From the NCBI RefSeq assembly GCF_028583425.1, contig NC_072799.1, positions 90,010,217 to 90,074,216 on the forward strand: a stretch of DNA of 64,000 nt, written 5' to 3'. The position numbers and the translations under genes are program-made. Every line of letters begins with the position of its first letter. Position 1 is the first letter of the stretch. This document shows positions 23,991-64,000 of this stretch, piece by piece. Below the pieces are notes generated by a model. The model searched no databases. It saw nothing but the letters and a program-made list of their open reading frames with translations, and had not been told where the DNA came from. Source of the stretch: Eublepharis macularius. Lineage: Eukaryota > Chordata > Lepidosauria > Squamata > Eublepharidae.

Positions 23991-24001
23991 CCAATGCAAA
24001 T
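23991..24001 (+). promoter_or_regulatory. Overlapping CCAAT box and octamer motif
   Basis: CCAAT (23991-23995) overlaps a perfect octamer ATGCAAAT (23994-24001) immediately upstream of the CpG island proposed as the TEC promoter. Octamer sites bind Oct-1/Oct-2 and are used in lymphoid promoters, which would fit TEC, a haematopoietic kinase. The functional role is inferred. Confidence 0.45.
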
Positions 24002-24003
24002 GA

Positions 24004-24780
24004 GTGACCTCTCCCCCCCCCCCCCAACATTCCCCGGCGAGGCTCCCCGGAGCGTTTCCCGCCGCGCGCCTGGCCTGGCCCGGCCCTCTTTCGGGACCCT
24101 TCCCAGGACGTCCCTTTAAAAACGGGGGCCAGGCGGAGCGTGCCGCGCCAGGCGCCCAGGAGGTTGCAGCAGCGGCTTCCTTTTCCTCGCCTCTTGCAGC
24201 AACCTCCGTCCGGCCCCCGAGCGGAGCGCAACAGCGCCGAGCCTCGCCGGGCGCGCCAGAAGAGGGCGAAGAGGAAGGCCGCGCTCGCTCGCTCGCTCGC
24301 TGCCCGCGGGCGGAAGGGGGCAGGGGCGGCGGCTGGTTTCGCGGCAGCCTCCGGACACCTCGGAGGGAGCCTCGGCCAAGCCAGCCGGGCGCCCGGGGCT
24401 GGCGCGCCCCAGCTGCCCCGGAGACCTTTCCAGGTAAGGCGAGGGCCGGCGGGTTGGCCTTGCGAAGAGCAGAGGCTGCAGCGCGGCGGGGCGGGGCGAC
24501 GGCGGGCCAGTCGGCAGCGCAGCCTTGAAGCAGCCGAGAGGAAGGCGGCAGCGGCGGCGCACGCTCGGGGCTGCTCGGGGCGCCTTCCGGGCGCCTTTTC
24601 ACAAACGGGGACGCGCGGACCTGTCGCGCTTTTGCCGTGGCAGAGGCGAAGGTGGAAGGCGTGTGCGCGTGAGTGAGCGCGGGACGGCGAGCGGGCCAAA
24701 GAGCTTGTTCTCCTTCTCCCGGGAAACTTGGAGGCGCCCAGCGAGGGCGATGGGCGATAGTCAGGCAAGACCCAAGAAAA
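24004..24780 (+). promoter_or_regulatory. TEC: CpG island, putative TEC promoter
   Basis: Dense GC/CpG block, the only one between SLAIN2 exon 1 and the TEC coding exon, with no TATA box. Its position upstream of TEC, the gene's orientation and a good plus-strand donor at its centre support it as the TEC promoter. Long open frames on both strands have no recognisable domains and are composition effects. Confidence 0.6.
24130..24433 (+). other. TEC: Putative non-coding first exon of TEC
   Basis: The sequence cctttccag|gtaaggcg gives a near-perfect CAG|GTAAGG splice donor, with the exon ending at 24433. The 5' boundary is not visible; 24130 is only a placeholder inside the CpG island. TEC genes start with an untranslated exon well upstream of the first coding exon, which fits, but no transcript evidence is available here. 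Confidence 0.4.
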
Positions 24781-25024: not shown

Positions 25025-25354
25025 AACTCGGTGGGTAATTCAATGGCGGGATTCAATCCCAGTTAAGGTAACGAAGGCCGCGATCACAGGTGGCTTCCCA
25101 AAGGTGTGCAGGGCGTGGCCGAGGGGTCGGCCCGGCAACGTCTTCGAGCTTTGGTGGCTGCGGGGAACCTTCCAGTTGAGCGGCAGGAAGCCTCTGGAGC
25201 TGCGGTGCCAGGACGCACCGTCAGGGGGAGCCCTTTGGCCTCTGTGTCCCGCTTGTCGGCCCCTTAACAGCACAGGGATGCTCAAGTGAAAGATCTTACC
25301 CTCGTTCTTCCAGTGTGGATTCACATGCACTGCCAGGGAGACTCGGATATTAGG

Positions 25355-26928
25355 TCCAGAGCAGTTAGCCGTGTTAGTCTGTGGTAGCAAAATCGAAAAG
25401 AGTCGAGTAGCACCTTTAAGACTAACTAACTTTACTGTAGCATAAGCTGTCGAGAATCACAGTTCTTTTCATCAGATGCGATGCATCTGACGAACAGAAC
25501 TGTGATTCTTGAAAGCTTATGCTACGGTAAAGTTAGTCTTAAAGGTGCGATGCATCTGACGAACAGAACTGTGATTCTCGAAAGCTTATGCTACAGTAAA
25601 GTTAGTTAGTCTTAAAGGTGCGATGCATCTGACGAAGAGAACTGTGATTCTCGAAAGCTTATGCTACAGTAAAGTTAGTCTTAAAGGTGCGATGCATCTG
25701 ACGAAGAGAACTGTGATTCTCGAAAGCTTATGCTACAGTAAAGTTAGTTAGTCTTAAAGGTGCGATGCATCTGACGAAGAGAACTGATTCTCGAAAGCTT
25801 ATGCTACAGTAAAGTTAGTCTTAAAGGTGCGATGCATCTGACGAAGAGAACTGTGATTCTCGAAAGCTTATGCTACGGTAAAGTTAGTTAGTCTTAAAGG
25901 TGCGATGCATCTGACGAAGAGAACTGTGATTCTCAAAAGCTTATGCTACAGTAAAGTTAGTCTTAAAGGTGCGATGCATCTGACGAAGAGAACTGTGATT
26001 CTCGAAAGCTTATGCTACAGTAAAGTTAGTTAGTCTTAAAGATGCGATGCATCTGACGAAGAGAACTGATTCTCGAAAGCTTATGCTACAGTAAAGTTAG
26101 TCTTAAAGGTGCGATGCATCTGACGAAGAGAACTGTGATTCTCGAAAGCTTATGCTATGGTAAAGTTAGTTAGTCTTAAAGGTGCGATGCATCTGACGAA
26201 GAGAACTGTGATTCTCAAAAGCTTATGCTACGGTAAAGTTAGTTAGTCTTAAAGGTGCGATGCATCTGACGAAGAGAACTGTGATTCTCGAAAGCTTATG
26301 CTACAGTAAAGTTAGTTAGTCTTAAAGGTGCGATGCATCTGACGAAGAGAACTGTGATTCTCGAAAGCTTATGCTACAGTAAAGTTAGTTAGTCTTAAAG
26401 GTGCGATGCATCTGACGAAGAGAACTGTGACTCTCAAAAGCTTATGCTACAGTAAAGTTAGTTAGTCTTAAAGGTGCGATGCATCTGACGAAGAGAACTG
26501 TGATTCTCGAAAGCTTATGCTACGGTAAAGTTAGTTAGTCTTAAAGGTGCGATGCATCTGACGAAGAGAACTGTGATTCTCGAAAGCTTATGCCACAGTA
26601 AAGTTAGTTAGTCTTAAAGGTGCGATGCATCTGACGAAGAGAACTGTGATTCTCAAAAGCTTATGCTACGGTAAAGTTAGTTAGTCTTAAAGGTGCGATG
26701 CATCTGACGAAGAGAACTGTGACTCTCAAAAGCTTATGCTACAGTAAAGGTAGTCTTAAAGGTGCGATGCATCTGACGAAGAGAACTGTGATTCTCGAAA
26801 GCTTATGCTACGGTAAAGTTAGTTAGTCTTAAAGGTGCGATGCATCTGACGAAGAGAACTGTGATTCTCAAAAGCTTATGCCACAGTAAATTTAGTTAGT
26901 CTTAAAGGTGCTACTGGACTCTTTTCGA
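25355..26928 (+). mobile_element. PLE insertion containing an expanded terminal-repeat array
   Basis: Flanked by the 8 bp direct repeat atattagg (25347-25354 and 26929-26936). The left end (gcagttagccgtgttagtct) and an inverted partial unit (25398-25475) precede 20 head-to-tail units (25480-26911), ending ctactggactctttt. The plan of one inverted plus tandem direct terminal repeats is typical of PLE terminal regions. No coding sequence is present. Confidence 0.75.
25480..26911 (+). ncRNA. Tandem array of 20 hammerhead-ribozyme-like units
   Basis: Units start at 25480, 25549, 25622, 25691, 25764, 25831, 25904, 25973, 26046, 26113, 26186, 26259, 26332, 26405, 26478, 26551, 26624, 26697, 26766 and 26839. 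Each reads GCAT-CTGACGA-A-stem II (GAGAA...TTCTC)-GAA-AGCT-T-ATGC. GCAT pairs with ATGC as stem I; AGCT is a self-complementary stem III that could form only between two copies; the predicted cut follows AAGCTT, 39 nt into each unit. CTGACGA is intact in all 20. The GAAA step is mutated to AAAA in six (units 7, 11, 14, 17, 18, 20), and stem II is weakened in units 1-2, leaving 12 units with every core feature. Unit length alternates 67-69/73 bp in the first half. The array lies sense to TEC. Cleavage is predicted, not shown. Confidence 0.65.
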
Positions 26929-27291
26929 ATATTAGGCCTATTTTTTAACAGCTGCTGGACAGACAAAAGGTTCAACATGAAGCGTTTCTCATCATCTCTG
27001 TGTTTTGGGAAAGCTTCCTTTGCTACGTCTTAGTCTGTTGGAAAAACAAAGAGCTCAGCAGAAAGAAGATCAACAGCTGCTCCAGCTGAATGTTTGCCTG
27101 TGAGGTTAAAGCCAAAGGAATCTTACTGGGATGGTGACTGTTTTAGAAGTTTTAATATTTTCCCTGTTCATTCTGTAGCTCCATCAGTGTCCACTGAGCT
27201 TATATCACTAATCAGCAAATTGTTTTCCAAAATGGCTAAATCAGGGAGCGAGGAGTGGCTTGCTACTCCACATACCTGTATATTGATTGAA

Positions 27292-28030: not shown

Positions 28031-28281
28031 CAGGGCTTTTTTTCCGGGAAAAGAGGTGGTGGAACTCAGTGGGTTGCCCTTGGGAGAAAATGGTCACATG
28101 GCTGGTGGCCCCGCCCCCTGATCTCCAGACAGAGGGGAGTTGAGATTGCCCTCCGCAGTGCGGAGGGCAATCTAAACTCCCCTCTGTCTGGAGATCAGGG
28201 GGCGGGGCCACCGGCCATGTGACCATTTTCAAGAGGTGCCGGAATGCCACTCCACCTCGTTCCTGCTGAAAAAAAGCCCTG
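28031..28281 (+). mobile_element. hAT-type MITE, copy 2
   Basis: CAGGGCTTTTTTTC ... GAAAAAAAGCCCTG ends and the shared internal hairpin. Flanks are attagact on the left and catgagact on the right, a diverged TSD. Confidence 0.88.
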
Positions 28282-50735: not shown

Positions 50736-51068
<333 letters not shown>

Positions 51069-54328: not shown

Positions 54329-54446
54329 GGGCCAAGCTACACATAACGAATGACACTTGAACGGCAAGTGTATTTCTCCCTGTTCACTAGCCCTCCACTC
54401 AATCCACTTGCCGTTCAAGTGTCATTCGTCATGTGTAGCTTGGCCC
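54329..54446. mobile_element. Perfect-ended palindromic MITE with GGGCCAAGCTAC ends
   Basis: Left gggccaagctacacataacg and right gtgtagcttggccc are inverted, as are aatgacacttgaacggcaag and cttgccgttcaagtgtcatt. A small 118 bp hairpin with arms of about 43 bp and few mismatches. Confidence 0.8.
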
Positions 54447-54864: not shown

Positions 54865-56100
54865 TCAGGCAGGGTGCCACCAAGGAACTCTGCCAGTGTG
54901 ACCGAAGTTTACAGTGACATAAATGTCAGATACACGGTCATAGGGGCTTGTCGGCTCCCTGAGCGCTTTCGGGCCTCCGTTTTTAGGATTGTGCTGTAAG
55001 GAGAAGTCTGTGATAATCATGGTCATAGCTGGGGTATTAATAACGTATGGTCTCAGGCTGGAGTCCATAAATCCTGATACTCCTTCTGTGATGGTGCTTA
55101 TGCTCGAGACAATGGGACATCCAGGGTTGTAAAGTTTGTGTCTGTTTGGCAAGAGGTAGGTGCCCGGTTGCGGTTCCCAGGGTGCATCTGTATAAATTTG
55201 TTCCTGTATATATGTTGGGACTTTCTTCATGATTTTGTTGAGTGCCTGCTGGTATTCATGTGTGGGATCTGAGGTTAGCAGCCTGTAGAAACTGGTGTTG
55301 GAGAGTTGTCTTGGAGCTTCTTGTATGTAGTCTGTCTTGTCCATCATGACAATGGCTCCTCCCTTGTCAGCTTTCTTTATTATAATATCCAGATTGTTTC
55401 TCAGGCTGCTTATGGCATTTCTCTCTGAGCGGCTGGTATTTTTTGTTAATTATTTCAGCTTGGGCTCAGCGACAGACGCATTCTATGTATACATCTAGTG
55501 TAGGATTGAGGGCTTCAGGAGGGGTCCACATGGAGTCCTTCTTTCTGTAGTGTCAAGGGGGAGCTAATTGGTCACCCTTATACTCTTCATTGGTGGAAGG
55601 GCGAGGAGGCAGCTGTTCAGCAGTGGATTGTGGAAGCTGTGAGGAGGCTGTCGGTCTGAGTGTGTTCTGTTCTGTGCTGTGGTGAAAGTATTCCTTCAAG
55701 TGTAGGTGGCGGAAGAAGGCCTCCAGGTCTCCACAGAGCTGTATTGTCTGTGTAGGGTTAGTGGGATGGAAGGATAATCCTCTTGAAAGAACAGAATCCT
55801 CTGCTAAGCTGAGGGTATGCTGGGAAAGGTCAACAATATTGCTGCTAGGATTGCTGTTATGACTAGTTGTGGCTTGTAAAATGTTGGAAAGTTTTTTGTC
55901 TTTCTGCTTTTATAGAGAAGTAAGTTGCGTGTTGTAGATGCCTTGTCTCCTGCTGTGAAATTGCTCTGGAAAGCGTTGATCCTGTAGATCAGAGAAGTTC
56001 AGTGAGTTGATCCTTGATCAGTTTCTGTTTCTGGTACAAGACACTGGCCAAATGTTTCAGTAACGTCTTGGAAAATGTATGACACAAACTCTCACCATAG
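54865..56100 (-). pseudogene. Penelope-like element ORF remnant (N-terminal region and part of RT)
   Basis: The minus-strand frame 55347-54865 contains DYIQEAPRQLSNTSFYRLL, YLLPNRHKL and GCPIVSSIST, the RT-region signature of Neptune/Poseidon-type PLEs (usual forms LPKIHK and RPIVSS). Upstream (55370-55900, other frames) are FFRHLHLKEYF-like and WTPPEALNPTLDVYIE-like segments, typical of the N-terminal part. The catalytic YxDD region and the GIY-YIG endonuclease are missing, and there are several frame breaks and stops. It is inactive. It shows that autonomous PLEs were present in this genome. Confidence 0.7.
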
Positions 56101-59987: not shown

Positions 59988-60240
59988 AACAACATACGAT
60001 TTATATACCACCCTTCAGGACAACTTAACACCCACTCAGAGTGGTTTATAAAGTTTGTCATTATTATCCCCACAACAATCACCCTGTGAGGTGGGTGAGG
60101 CTGAGAGAGCTCTGAGAAAGCTGTGGCCTACCCAAGGTCACCCAAGGTCACCCAGCTGCCTTCAAATTGAGGATTGGGGAATCAAACCTGGTTCTCCAGA
60201 TTAGAGTCCCGCACTCTTAACCACTACACCCCACACTAAG
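59988..60240 (-). repeat. Sauria SINE, reverse orientation
   Basis: Complement of the (att)-adjacent 3' end (cacccttcaggacaacttaa), the middle (ctgtgaggtgggtgaggctg) and the box A/B head (cctggttctccagattagag, ttaaccactacacc). Near full length, with a small internal duplication of ccaaggtcac. Confidence 0.8.
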
Positions 60241-60278
60241 AGTGGTTTAGAAAGTGTGTTATTATCCTTCCCTCCTGG

Positions 60279-61199
60279 GTGGTTCCATATGAAGTAATAG
60301 ATCCGAGAACGGTTGATAATGAACAACAGTGCTTAACGTATAAGGAGATAACAAGAATAGAATCTTCTAAAATAAGAATAAAGACGCAACAAGAGTTGTC
60401 TCCAAACTACGACTGGTTTCAATATAGACAAATCAGGGATCTTTACTACTCGGACTGTGTGAAGGGAGGGATAAGAATGGAGAATTCAGACTTAGAGAAA
60501 GTAATTTTACAAGAAGATAAAAAGGAAATCTCTAAGATTTACAAAGTGTTGTTAAAATGGTATACGGAAGATGAAGCAGTTAAAGTGCAAATGGTGAAGT
60601 GGGCTATAAACTTTAATAAAGAAATAACAATGGAGGCGTGGGAATACTTATGGAAAAATACATTGAAGATTACGACATGTACCAATATCAAAGAGAATCT
60701 CTACAAAATGATTTACCATTGGTACTTGACACCAAAGAAAATTGCGCTAGGGAATTTGAATATGTCTAACAAATGCTGGAAATGTAAAAAGCATGAGGGA
60801 TCTTTGTATCACATGTGGTGGACTTGTGAGGTAGCTAGGCAGTACTGGGGGAAAATAATAAGAGTAATGAATGAGATTTTACAATTTCAAGTCAATAAGA
60901 ACCCAGAACTCCTGCTACTGAACTTGGGAATAGAGGACATTCCAGCACAATACAGGACATTGTTATTCTATATGACAGCAGCAGCTAGGCTTTTGTATGC
61001 GCAGAAGTGGAAAGTACAAGAAGTGCCAACTATTGAGGATTGGATTTATAAATTGCTGTACATGGCGGAGATGGATAAAATGACAAGAAAATTGAGAGAC
61101 CTTGATCCAGGACAGTTTAACACGGACTGGGAAAAGCTGAAACAATATCTGGTGAAAAAATGGGAGGTGGGAGGACTGTGGCAGTTCGAAAACTACTGA
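60279..61199 (+). pseudogene. L1 retrotransposon ORF2, C-terminal fragment
   Basis: An open frame of 306 codons whose C-terminal half matches L1 ORF2: a Cys/His knuckle CWKCKKHEGSLYHMWWTC (C166, C169, H178, C183) preceded by YHWYLTPKKIA. The reverse transcriptase and endonuclease domains are missing (5' truncation). The frame is uninterrupted to its TGA at 61197-61199, so the copy is fairly young. It lies in TEC intron 2 in sense orientation. Confidence 0.85.
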
Positions 61200-61527: not shown

Positions 61528-61911
61528 TGTCAGGGCTTACTGCGGCTGCCACTGGGCGTGGCACTGGGCAGTCTGCTCCTGACGTCACAGGGGGGCCAGG
61601 GACTCTGCAGGACCCTGCTCTGTGGAAGGAGGGGCGGTATACCTCACCCAGACTCCCTCTCAGTCCGCTCGCTGGCCTGCTCAACCTGGCCTGCTTACCC
61701 TCTGCATCCTCCTTCATCTCCTCCTTCCAGAACTCTCCTCCAAGCCACCATCCTTGCATCCTACTGCTCTCACTCCACATCATCACTCCTCACTCACACC
61801 CACCACCTCAGAGCTCTTCCTAGCCACCTTATATAGGGCTTCCTTTCCCCGCCCTGCCCTCCTTCTAGGCTTGTTCCCTCTCCTGACTTGGCCCAGCTGT
61901 GCCTTCCCTCA
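61528..61911 (-). mobile_element. Putative 3' LTR of a Ty3/gypsy element
   Basis: On the minus strand the proposed LTR begins TGAGGGAAGG (61911), preceded by a purine-rich tract (61912-61928), and ends CCCTGACA (61528), giving TG...CA ends. It contains a TATA box (61829-61835). The 5' LTR is outside the window, so the limits cannot be confirmed by comparison. Confidence 0.55.
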
Positions 61912-63518
61912 GGTGTTTCCCTCCTACCACTAATCCCTTCTTGGCTTCCTTGCCTTGCTGGCAGGGTGGGGTTGAATGCGAGCCATCCCCAGCTGAGGTC
62001 TCCTCGGCCTTCCTCACGAGGAGCTGCCCCAGCCGGCTTCTGTGCTGCTGAGCCTGCCTGGCCTTGCTCGCGAGGAGCTGCCCTGGCCAGCTTTTGTGCT
62101 GCTGAGCCTGTCTGGCCTTGCTCGCGAGGAGCTGCCCTGGCCAGCTTCTGTGCTGCCTGTTCATTGATGCTGGGAGGGGCTACCCATCTCCTCCCCCAGA
62201 ATGCCTGTGGCAGCTCCACCTGGAGGGGCTTGGCTCCTAGCACCTCCTGAGCCAGGCTGCTGTCCTCTAGCCAGGGTGTGGCTCTGGGCTGTGGTGGCTG
62301 CTTCTCCTCCTTGGAAGGTAAGGGCTCTGTCTGGGCTGTTGCTGTGTCCCTGTTCCCCTTGCCTTGGCCCTTTTCCTCTAGCCTGCTTAGCCCCCTTTCT
62401 CCCCCATGGTGGGTGGGACTAGCTGGCTTCTCCCTGCTCCCTCCAGCCTTCTGAGGCTTTGGCCTTTTGCCCCTTCCCCCTGGAGTAGGCAGGGTCTGGC
62501 TCTGTTTGCCAGACAGAGCAGCTGAACTGCTGTCTCCCGGCTGCCCCCTGCCGCTGTCTGCCAGCAAGTCCGGGGGCTGGGCTGCTGACCCCGGACACAC
62601 ACCCCCTCTTAGCCTGGACGCTGGCTCGGGGGGGTCTGGCTCGAAGAGCCGTGACATGAAGTCCGCATCCCTATGGCTGGTCCCCCGGCGGTAGGTAATG
62701 GTGAACCGGTATGGCAGTAGAGACAGGTACCACCTCAGGATGCGAGGGTTGTGCTCTTTCATCCGGTGCATCCATTGGAGGGGTGCATGGTCTCTCACCA
62801 ATGTAAAGGGGTTATTCGCCAGATAATACCGCAAAGCCCCCACGGCCCATTTGATGGCAAGGGCCTCCCTCTCAATGGTTGCATACTTCTGCTCCGCTGG
62901 CTGGAGCTTGCGGCTCAGGAACAAGACGGGCACCCTCCCTCCATCTTGCTCCTGCATCAGGACCGCCCCCAGGCCTGAGGCCGATGCATCAGTTGCCAGT
63001 ACGAAGGGTTTCTCAAAGTCCGGATTCCAGAGCTTGGTGGTGTCCGATAGTGCAGTGCGTAAGTCCTGGAAGGCAGCCTCCCGCTCCGGCGTCCAGCTGA
63101 GGCGACTAGGGCTGCCCTTCTTCAGACAGTCCGTCAGGGGGGCTGAGCGGGTCGCAAAATGGGGGATGAAGCGCCCGTAGTAGCCAAGAAGCCCCAGAAA
63201 CCTCCTGAGCTGACGCTTGGTCTGTGGTTGGGGCACATCCCCTATGGAGGCCACCTTTTCAGGCGGGGGTCGGATCTGTCCACCTCCGATGACAAATCCC
63301 AGGTACTTGAGCTCCTGGAATCCCAAGTGGCTCTTCTTGGGGTTGGCCTTCAGCCCTGCCTTCTGGAGTGCGGTGAGGACTTTCTCCAGGTGCTGTAGGT
63401 GGGAGGGCCAGTCGGAAGATGACGATGTCATCAATGTAAGCCATTGCAAAGTCCCGACAGTCCCCCAGGACTTGATCCACCAGCCGCTGGAAGGTAGCCG
63501 CTGCCCCGTGGAGGCCAA
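61794..63518 (-). pseudogene. Ty3/gypsy pol: RT end, RNase H and C-terminal extension
   Basis: Open frame of 574 codons. Residues 1-34 are out of frame with the element and should be ignored. From about residue 35 it continues the RT connection region (LGLLGYYGRFIPHF at about 108-121). RNase H follows at about 170-290, with acidic residues D177, E218, D243 and D284/D286. Then comes a roughly 280-residue Pro/Gln/Lys-rich extension with three 18-residue repeats, running into the LTR. No integrase follows RNase H. The upstream RT is in another frame, separated by a frameshift near 63420, so the copy is inactive as it stands. Confidence 0.85.
62018..62156 (-). repeat. Tandem 54 bp repeat (18 residues) in the gypsy pol extension
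   Basis: Two full units (62018-62071, 62072-62125) and a partial third (62126-62156). They encode AAQKLARAAPREQGQ-type repeats. The repeat length is a multiple of three and preserves the frame. Confidence 0.85.
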
Positions 63519-64000
63519 AGGGCATGCGGCGGAACTGGAAGAGGCCCCGGGGGGTGGCGAAGGCCGTCTTCTCCCGGTCCTCCAGGCGCACTGGTACCTG
63601 CCAGTACCCTTTCGTCAGGTCGAGGGCGGACAAGTACCGGGCCGGCCCCAGTTGCCCCACTAGGACGTCCGCCCGCGGCATGGGGTATGCGTCGAACTTG
63701 GCCACTTTGTTCAGTTCCCGGTAGTCGATGCAGAAGCGAGTCGACCCGTCTGGCTTTGGCACCAACACGATGGGGCTGCGCCATTCACTTCGGGACGGTT
63801 CAATCACCCCCAGGCGCAGCATTTCCTCCGTCTCCCGATCCACCGCCTCCCACTGCTTCCGGGGGATGGGTCGCCAGGTTGCCCGTGCAGATTGCCCCGG
63901 CTGGGTGGGGATGGCATGGTGCACCAGGTTCGTGACCCCGGGGCGTCTTGAAAAGACCCCGGGCGCTTGCTTCCACAGGGCCTGTAGCTGGGCCTTCTGT
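63259..64000 (-). pseudogene. Ty3/gypsy reverse transcriptase, partial at window edge
   Basis: The frame is open from the window edge. It contains the RT motifs in order: an EEMLRLGVIEPSRSEW region, VLVPKPDGSTRFCIDYRELN, LDLTKGYWQVPV, FRRMPFGLHGA and the catalytic YIDDIV (about 63433-63416). A single-base frame change at about 63420, just after the catalytic motif, moves the rest of pol to the next frame; this frame then runs without meaning to 63259. Related elements of fish and amphibians have RT and RNase H last in pol, with integrase before RT. Confidence 0.9.

Follow-up and report, generated by a model that had tools for sequence, protein, structure and literature searches.

Newt satellite 2 and the satellites of cave crickets encode hammerhead ribozymes, and the newt ribozyme acts as a dimer. 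Minimal type-I hammerheads were reportedly located in the pLTRs of Penelope-like elements (PLEs) by Cervera and De la Pena in 2014, and in 2017 Lunse and colleagues are said to have found that PLE hammerheads cleave as dimers. Passages of two papers describe minimal hammerheads in PLEs, their tandem occurrence and possible dimeric cleavage (PMC6155905, PMC7761336), the first mentioning a newt satellite and the second calling the role of PLE hammerheads 'still a mystery'. In published PLEs, as sections of a further report describe them, the pLTRs are inverted and have palindromes where they meet head-to-head, one arm may carry a 31-bp tail, and target-site duplications measure 8-10 bp (PMC3846280). 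Metazoan non-LTR retrozymes are presented, in parts of another paper, as tandem hammerhead repeats in animal genomes that are possibly mobilized by PLEs, and the same source reports tandem copies of minimal hammerheads in axolotl PLEs (PMC7229834).

The locus described here lies in a stretch of Eublepharis macularius DNA of 64,000 nucleotides, called the window below, at 90.01-90.07 Mb of contig C10 in an assembly of 2.24 Gb. The window holds a tandem array of very short hammerhead-like units within a PLE insertion (Table 1). We consider it likely that this array is a PLE remnant that expanded in place, whose core is drifting and which is carried as a passenger upstream of the TEC coding sequence.

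Table 1. Positions of the array, the surrounding insertion and the host gene features, counted from the first nucleotide of the window
Feature	Position	Strand	Remarks
GC-rich island, presumed TEC promoter and exon 1	24000-24750	.	GC about 0.74
Left target-site duplication ATATTAGG	25347..25354	.	8 bp
Whole insertion	25355..26928	.	Single non-autonomous PLE copy with two head-to-head pLTRs, of which the + one holds 20 units
Inverted pLTR copy	25355..25479	-	Optional 37-nt tail at outer end (about 25356-25392)
Tandem array	25480..26911	+	20 units, 67-73 bp, consisting of a minimal hammerhead-like core and a spacer
Span of 12 fully matching cores	25622..26838	+	Units 3-6, 8-10, 12, 13, 15, 16, 19
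Right end of + pLTR	26912..26928	+	Stops short of tail
Right target-site duplication ATATTAGG	26929..26936	.	8 bp
TEC coding exon, start of PH domain	about 50886-51035	+	Best PDB match 2lul (Tec), E 4.5e-21

A first-pass annotation of the window had proposed 20 head-to-tail units of 67-73 bp, which is borne out both by TRF (20.0 copies at 25477-26911, period 73, 93% matches) and by a per-unit table, in which the units measure 67, 69, 72 or 73 bp, the length of the last one depending on the chosen end point. Every unit begins at the palindrome GATGCATC and presents, in order, GCAT, CTGACGA, an extra A, stem II, GAA or AAA, the palindrome AGCT, a T and ATGC. The motif counts that had been claimed (CTGACGA in 20 of 20 units, GAAA in 14 of 20, full cores in 12 of 20, and AGCT-T-ATGC with GCAT upstream, each in 20 of 20) are all reproduced in the table; GAA stands 3' of stem II in those 14 units and AAA in units 7, 11, 14, 17, 18 and 20. 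Stem II is GAGAA/TTCTC in most units, with a loop of 4 or 6 nt; its first pair is broken in units 1 and 2 and its last in units 14 and 18. Stem I (GCAT/ATGC) is possible in every unit, a closed stem III is impossible within any single one, and the AGCT palindrome could pair between two units.

Hammerhead position names (C3, A9, G12, H17) are applied here to the array core. With these names, the 12 complete minimal cores retain C3-A9, G12-A14 and a cleavable H17. G12 is catalytic in hammerheads, and it has been lost through a G-to-A change, as expected at a CpG, in six of the 20 units, five of which (7, 11, 14, 17 and 18) lie inside the span of the complete cores. The pattern CTGANGA-N(10-30)-GAAAGCTTATG matches 14 times in the window, always within the array, and not once in 100 dinucleotide shuffles.

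The segment that contains the array is one non-autonomous PLE insertion, because its inverted pLTRs, junction palindrome, tail and target-site duplication fit the published anatomy. In the window, the 8-mer ATATTAGG is confined to two sites, one at each edge of the insertion. The minus arm meets the plus arm head-to-head at 25480, with the palindrome GATGCATC at the junction, and its outer end is 37 nt longer than that of the plus arm, from which the tail is absent. This minus arm is 92% identical to the last array unit with the adjoining right end, 85% and 80% identical to pLTR copies at 27.8 and 33.4 kb, and less similar to more distant copies. Others lie near 4.1, 24.9, 27.6 and 57.5 kb, the set including a diverged subfamily with a different stem II. 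Among the fetched loci, 19 of 49 pLTR clusters have flanks that share at least 9 bp (control mean 2.15, maximum 6 over 200 shuffles), although at least one of these 19, at locus L042, is element sequence and no true duplication.

No reading frame for a reverse transcriptase with GIY-YIG is present at the array locus itself. However, a search for motif pairs about 3 kb apart located a relative (L058, C1:4656500-4660100), a PLE copy of about 3 kb that has inverted arms with the hammerhead motif on both and encodes domains above the Pfam cut-offs (RVT_1, 45.1 bits against 29.6; GIY-YIG, 25.8 bits against 22.6). This relative and the target-site duplications confirm the earlier placement of the array inside a PLE insertion. 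At least four motif pairs spaced 2,993-2,995 bp occur among the first 100 strict-motif places listed, which suggests a recent family. On the minus strand of the window, 54868-55449 is a fragment of a PLE reverse transcriptase, 62% identical to that of L058 over 150 columns; a protein search with the fragment gave a single remote, nameless match. None of 12 solo motif copies, read with flanks of about 5 kb, has a reverse transcriptase beside it. Neither the motif nor the tail was found at any locus in viral contigs, and four single motif matches in four bacteria, from the scan of prokaryote contigs, were taken as chance.

Stems I and II covary among members of this PLE family, which makes the hammerhead fold a family trait. 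The covariation score of the hammerhead pairs is reached by none of 500 shuffles in an alignment of 15 rows, five of them array units, and by one of 500 in an alignment of 10 rows with one array unit, with the caveat that related sequences can exceed every shuffle; a poorly aligned row (c33399m) was kept in the larger set and omitted from the smaller. Of five measures applied, two do not stand out: the number of pairs with both sides altered is reached by 79 (15 rows) and 120 (10 rows) of 500 shuffles, and that of further pair types by 115 and 137. The score for the competing hairpin is weaker, being reached by 141 and 22 of 500 shuffles, respectively. The annotated PLE origin of the motif is supported, as is its minimal, type-I hammerhead-like core without a closed stem III.

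A covariance-model search, which the annotation had proposed as a check, came back negative, with no Rfam hammerhead at E<=1 in 4001 bases or at E<=10 in 171 bases. This result is weak evidence, because six sister loci likewise give no Rfam hammerhead at E<=10. The strongest matches to Rfam miRNA families, all below the gathering score, are head-to-head inverted pLTRs read as hairpins, and a further one at 28.1 kb, also below that score, is another inverted repeat read in the same way. A near-perfect, GC-rich inverted repeat of about 86 bp, which forms a long hairpin, lies at 28116-28201.

The comparison with described systems reveals both shared and distinct characters. Satellite monomers of newts and cave crickets are hundreds of base pairs long, whereas the array unit is little more than the ribozyme and resides inside a PLE insertion. 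The minimal hammerheads of PLE pLTRs resemble the array in having CUGANGA, stem II, GAAA, no closed stem III and a palindromic AGCU that could dimerize. However, the tandems treated in the relevant passages of the PLE papers are whole or partial elements, while the array is a 73-bp piece of a pLTR present 20 times in one insertion. For Poseidon of Anolis carolinensis, sections of the report place the cut site 26 bp after the start of the open reading frame (ORF), describe an optional tail of 30-40 bp and have the reverse transcriptase begin 111-118 bp into the ORF; by hand count, the distance to the cut site in the array is 26 nt counting from A9, and the 37-nt tail of the window insertion ends about 111-114 nt after the start of stem II or A9 (PMC11167929). 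Unlike Poseidon, the window locus has no ORF and its motif is multiplied. Retrozyme monomers, as described in parts of the source, are about 150-450 bp long and give circular RNAs (PMC7229834), and they carry a canonical hammerhead and disperse as multimers; the array has units of 67-73 bp with a minimal motif and no closed stem III, and its junction is confined to the array itself, whereas a 47-bp sister junction is dispersed. Among the titles retrieved from a mostly open-access literature, none concerns comparable arrays with units of 41-91 bp.

Such an array had been called unusual, a view not supported in a genome with 2,939 head-to-tail junctions of the same motif. The strict motif pattern matches 24,748 times, and the reversed forms of both patterns give no match. 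Arrays in the fetched loci have periods of 41, 47, 50, 52, 58-61, 64, 68, 80, 88 and 91 bp, compared with 73 bp in the window. As a PLE remnant, the locus is ordinary; of some note is that very short hammerhead arrays like it form a large population. The genome amounts to a natural experiment: its roughly 25,000 nearly identical minimal hammerheads, thousands of head-to-tail junctions, arrays with intact, mutated or missing cores and clean target-site duplications can be used to tell array formation apart from catalysis and to learn if short multimers are mobile.

The array would have begun as a single non-autonomous PLE insertion with two pLTRs head-to-head at a short palindrome, one of them tailed, between 8-bp duplications. 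The first 73 bp of the plus pLTR, comprising the stem-III-less hammerhead motif and a spacer, would then have multiplied in place to 20 units, partly through the duplication of four-unit blocks. Two observations bear on this proposal. The junction between window units occurs 18 times in the genome, always in this array (the 19th internal junction has a substitution), and because it is private the array appears to have arisen once, at its present site. In addition, the similarity between units at an offset of four exceeds expectation (P 5e-5 for this offset, 0.0015 when ten offsets are allowed for), which indicates that four-unit blocks were duplicated. Together, the blocks and the private junction point to unequal exchange or slippage after insertion, and it is possible that the first duplication took place during reverse transcription.

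A different origin, in which the units multiplied as RNA or cDNA, is unlikely for the window array but has some evidence in its favour, here and elsewhere in the genome. Here the PLE reverse transcriptase would have jumped from the 5' end of its template, at the GATGCATC palindrome, to an internal site, or would have circled a small RNA, and the multimer would have been inserted ready-made. Most arrays, whatever their period between 41 and 91 bp, share the 5' start at the palindrome and vary in their 3' ends (exceptions are L018, L019 and L035), and 256 of 352 unit matches in the fetched loci, solo copies included, start at model position 2 or 3. A single target-site duplication encloses the complete array in the window and at L015, L017, L054 and L056. 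Moreover, the 47-bp junction recurs 242 times in the genome, with at least 47 clusters among 100 places listed, on five contigs (C1-C5), and for 12 loci, which fall into three groups of equal period, the flanks are dissimilar, so that those arrays probably moved as multimers. Families of 47, 50 and 52 bp each recur at several loci with dissimilar flanks (e.g. L046-L057, L013-L022), the recurrence of the latter two resting on the first 100 junction places listed. The dispersal of the 47-bp junction family shows that other arrays of this genome probably move as multimers, and multiplication at the RNA level may occur in it. For the window array, however, the private junction speaks against this origin, as do the four-unit blocks, which are as expected from duplication of DNA. 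Furthermore, the arrays at L018 and L035 start elsewhere and lack the core, and the constant 5' point differs from the hammerhead cut site. The idea that unit 5' ends correspond to that cut site was rejected, because of all arrays read just one, that of L035, has its start close to this site, and there it falls a few bases within the spacer.

The positions of arrays along contigs were also compared. All 47 listed clusters with the 47-bp junction lie no more than 24 Mb from a contig end, and 13 arrays are nearer to contig ends than are 24 solo copies (P 0.004 for distance in Mb, 0.011 for distance as a fraction of the contig), a comparison that is biased in that both sets were hand-picked from a best-match list.

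An extension of this reading treats the arrays as mini-retrozymes, that is, as PLE pLTRs reduced to hammerhead monomers of 47-73 bp in multimers, whose transcripts are cut as dimers, copied by a PLE reverse transcriptase and re-inserted as multimers. We hold this to be improbable. If it were true, the resulting RNAs, circular or linear, would be much smaller than those of known retrozymes; the families of 47, 50 and 52 bp would represent the mobile forms and the window array a private, newly born one.

The annotation had further proposed that the array works on RNA, with dimeric hammerheads cutting the TEC pre-mRNA into 67-73-nt pieces or circles and thereby affecting TEC expression or yielding stable small RNAs. 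This proposal is decidedly improbable, although the 12 complete cores among 20 units, the covariation that backs the fold across the family and the dimeric cleavage reported for related PLE hammerheads would all agree with it. Under the in-place account, the motif would have been inherited from the PLE, where it was presumably useful to the element, and would be drifting within the array, some cores being complete and others lacking the catalytic G12. Variable columns are about as frequent in the core and stem as in the spacer of the window array (4 of 33 versus 6 of 40; Fisher P=1). The share of intact cores in the window array exceeds that of most sister arrays, which counts against the drift reading. 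Locus L016 has an intact core in six of seven plus-strand units and L013 in none of five. In a second 20-unit array (L017, 556-1810), CTGCCGA replaces CTGANGA in 16 of the 20 plus-strand units and one of the 20 is intact, and the CTGANGA core is absent from the roughly 25 units of 68 bp at L018 (C12:19.58 Mb), as the core is from the L035 array.

Intact cores are likewise not enriched in arrays as a group. Of 265 unit matches in 27 array clusters, 53 have a strict core, against 25 of 71 in the 47 clusters without arrays, which is a lower share in arrays (P=0.011); this comparison includes inverted arms and partial units (24 core-less L018 matches are among the 265), omits L033 (which overlaps L018), L058 and the window, and draws on best-match or first-listed places that are not a random sample. 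There is no sign that arrays are retained for RNA cutting, and arrays form without a working core, which argues against inferring the function of such arrays from sequence alone. The claimed function as a ribozyme array is thus left unsupported by the G12 losses, by a core that drifts as the spacer does, and by sister arrays with mutant or missing cores.

Structure predictions also weigh on whether the array RNA would cut itself. For two units, the minimum-energy fold is -30.7 kcal/mol, compared with -15.3 kcal/mol when a double hammerhead is forced, a cost of 15.4 kcal/mol; for seven adjacent intact pairs trimmed to the motif, the mean gap is 10.3 kcal/mol. The cleavage-competent dimer is accordingly placed about 9-15 kcal/mol above the minimum-energy fold by programs that take no account of hammerhead tertiary contacts or of help from proteins. 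When the full insertion is folded, stem I within the unit has a probability of no more than 0.0001 in every unit, and that of stem II ranges from 0.0035 to 0.72, the highest value belonging to one unit. The one case in which AGCT-AGCT pairing between units rises to 0.61 involves units 18 and 20, neither of which has G12. Short-period arrays, which have no AGGTGC arm, had been expected to avoid the competing fold but did not, with gaps of 7.8-17.3 kcal/mol (per-locus means from 8 of 12 sources with adjacent strict pairs, some of these pairs being 94-100 bp apart and not next neighbours).

An argument for cutting comes from nascent RNAs of 46 nt, for which, in five units, the predicted probabilities of stems I and II are 0.94 and 0.98. 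By 65 nt, stem I has dropped to 0.03-0.54, and by 73 nt to no more than 0.0002. On paper, this behaviour would leave a brief window in which the RNA could be cut during transcription. The units of the array RNA are predicted to fold mostly into another hairpin, so any cutting would be weak and dimeric and would perhaps depend on a PLE protein. For the Anolis relative, sections of the Poseidon report state that its hammerhead cut in vitro solely with its own protein present and that RNA-seq gave no ends at its cut site, and also mention earlier self-cleavage of a PLE hammerhead at 3-25 mM Mg2+ (PMC11167929). Self-cleavage of, or circular RNA from, the array may occur. The functional inference drawn from the array is mostly disfavoured, and the observation of the array itself and its identification with PLEs and hammerheads are confirmed.

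An assembly artefact behind the copy number or order of the units is scarcely credible, since, hard as tandem arrays are to assemble, the differences among these units, at 15 columns, follow a structured order of four, neither the flanks nor the duplication show irregularities, and arrays with other periods exist independently.

The setting of the array in the host gene agrees with the annotation, which had placed it sense to TEC: the PH-domain exon lies on the plus strand, as does the array. The array begins 0.7 kb downstream of the GC-rich island and is upstream of that exon, and with this position between the two it probably lies in intron 1 of TEC. Here it would most likely be a passenger upstream of the coding region. 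SLAIN2 is the usual neighbour of TEC, and the window contains at 348-854, on the minus strand, an ORF that resembles the first exon of SLAIN2 and is a candidate for it.

Several other repeats are present in the window. LTR-retrotransposon-like ORF pieces occupy 61797-63999 on the minus strand, of which 61797-63614 matches RNase H and the end of RVT_1. A LINE-like ORF end lies at 60240-61196 on the plus strand, with a weak zf-RVT match below the cut-off, and a MITE-like repeat of 118 bp with long terminal inverted repeats is found at 54329-54446.
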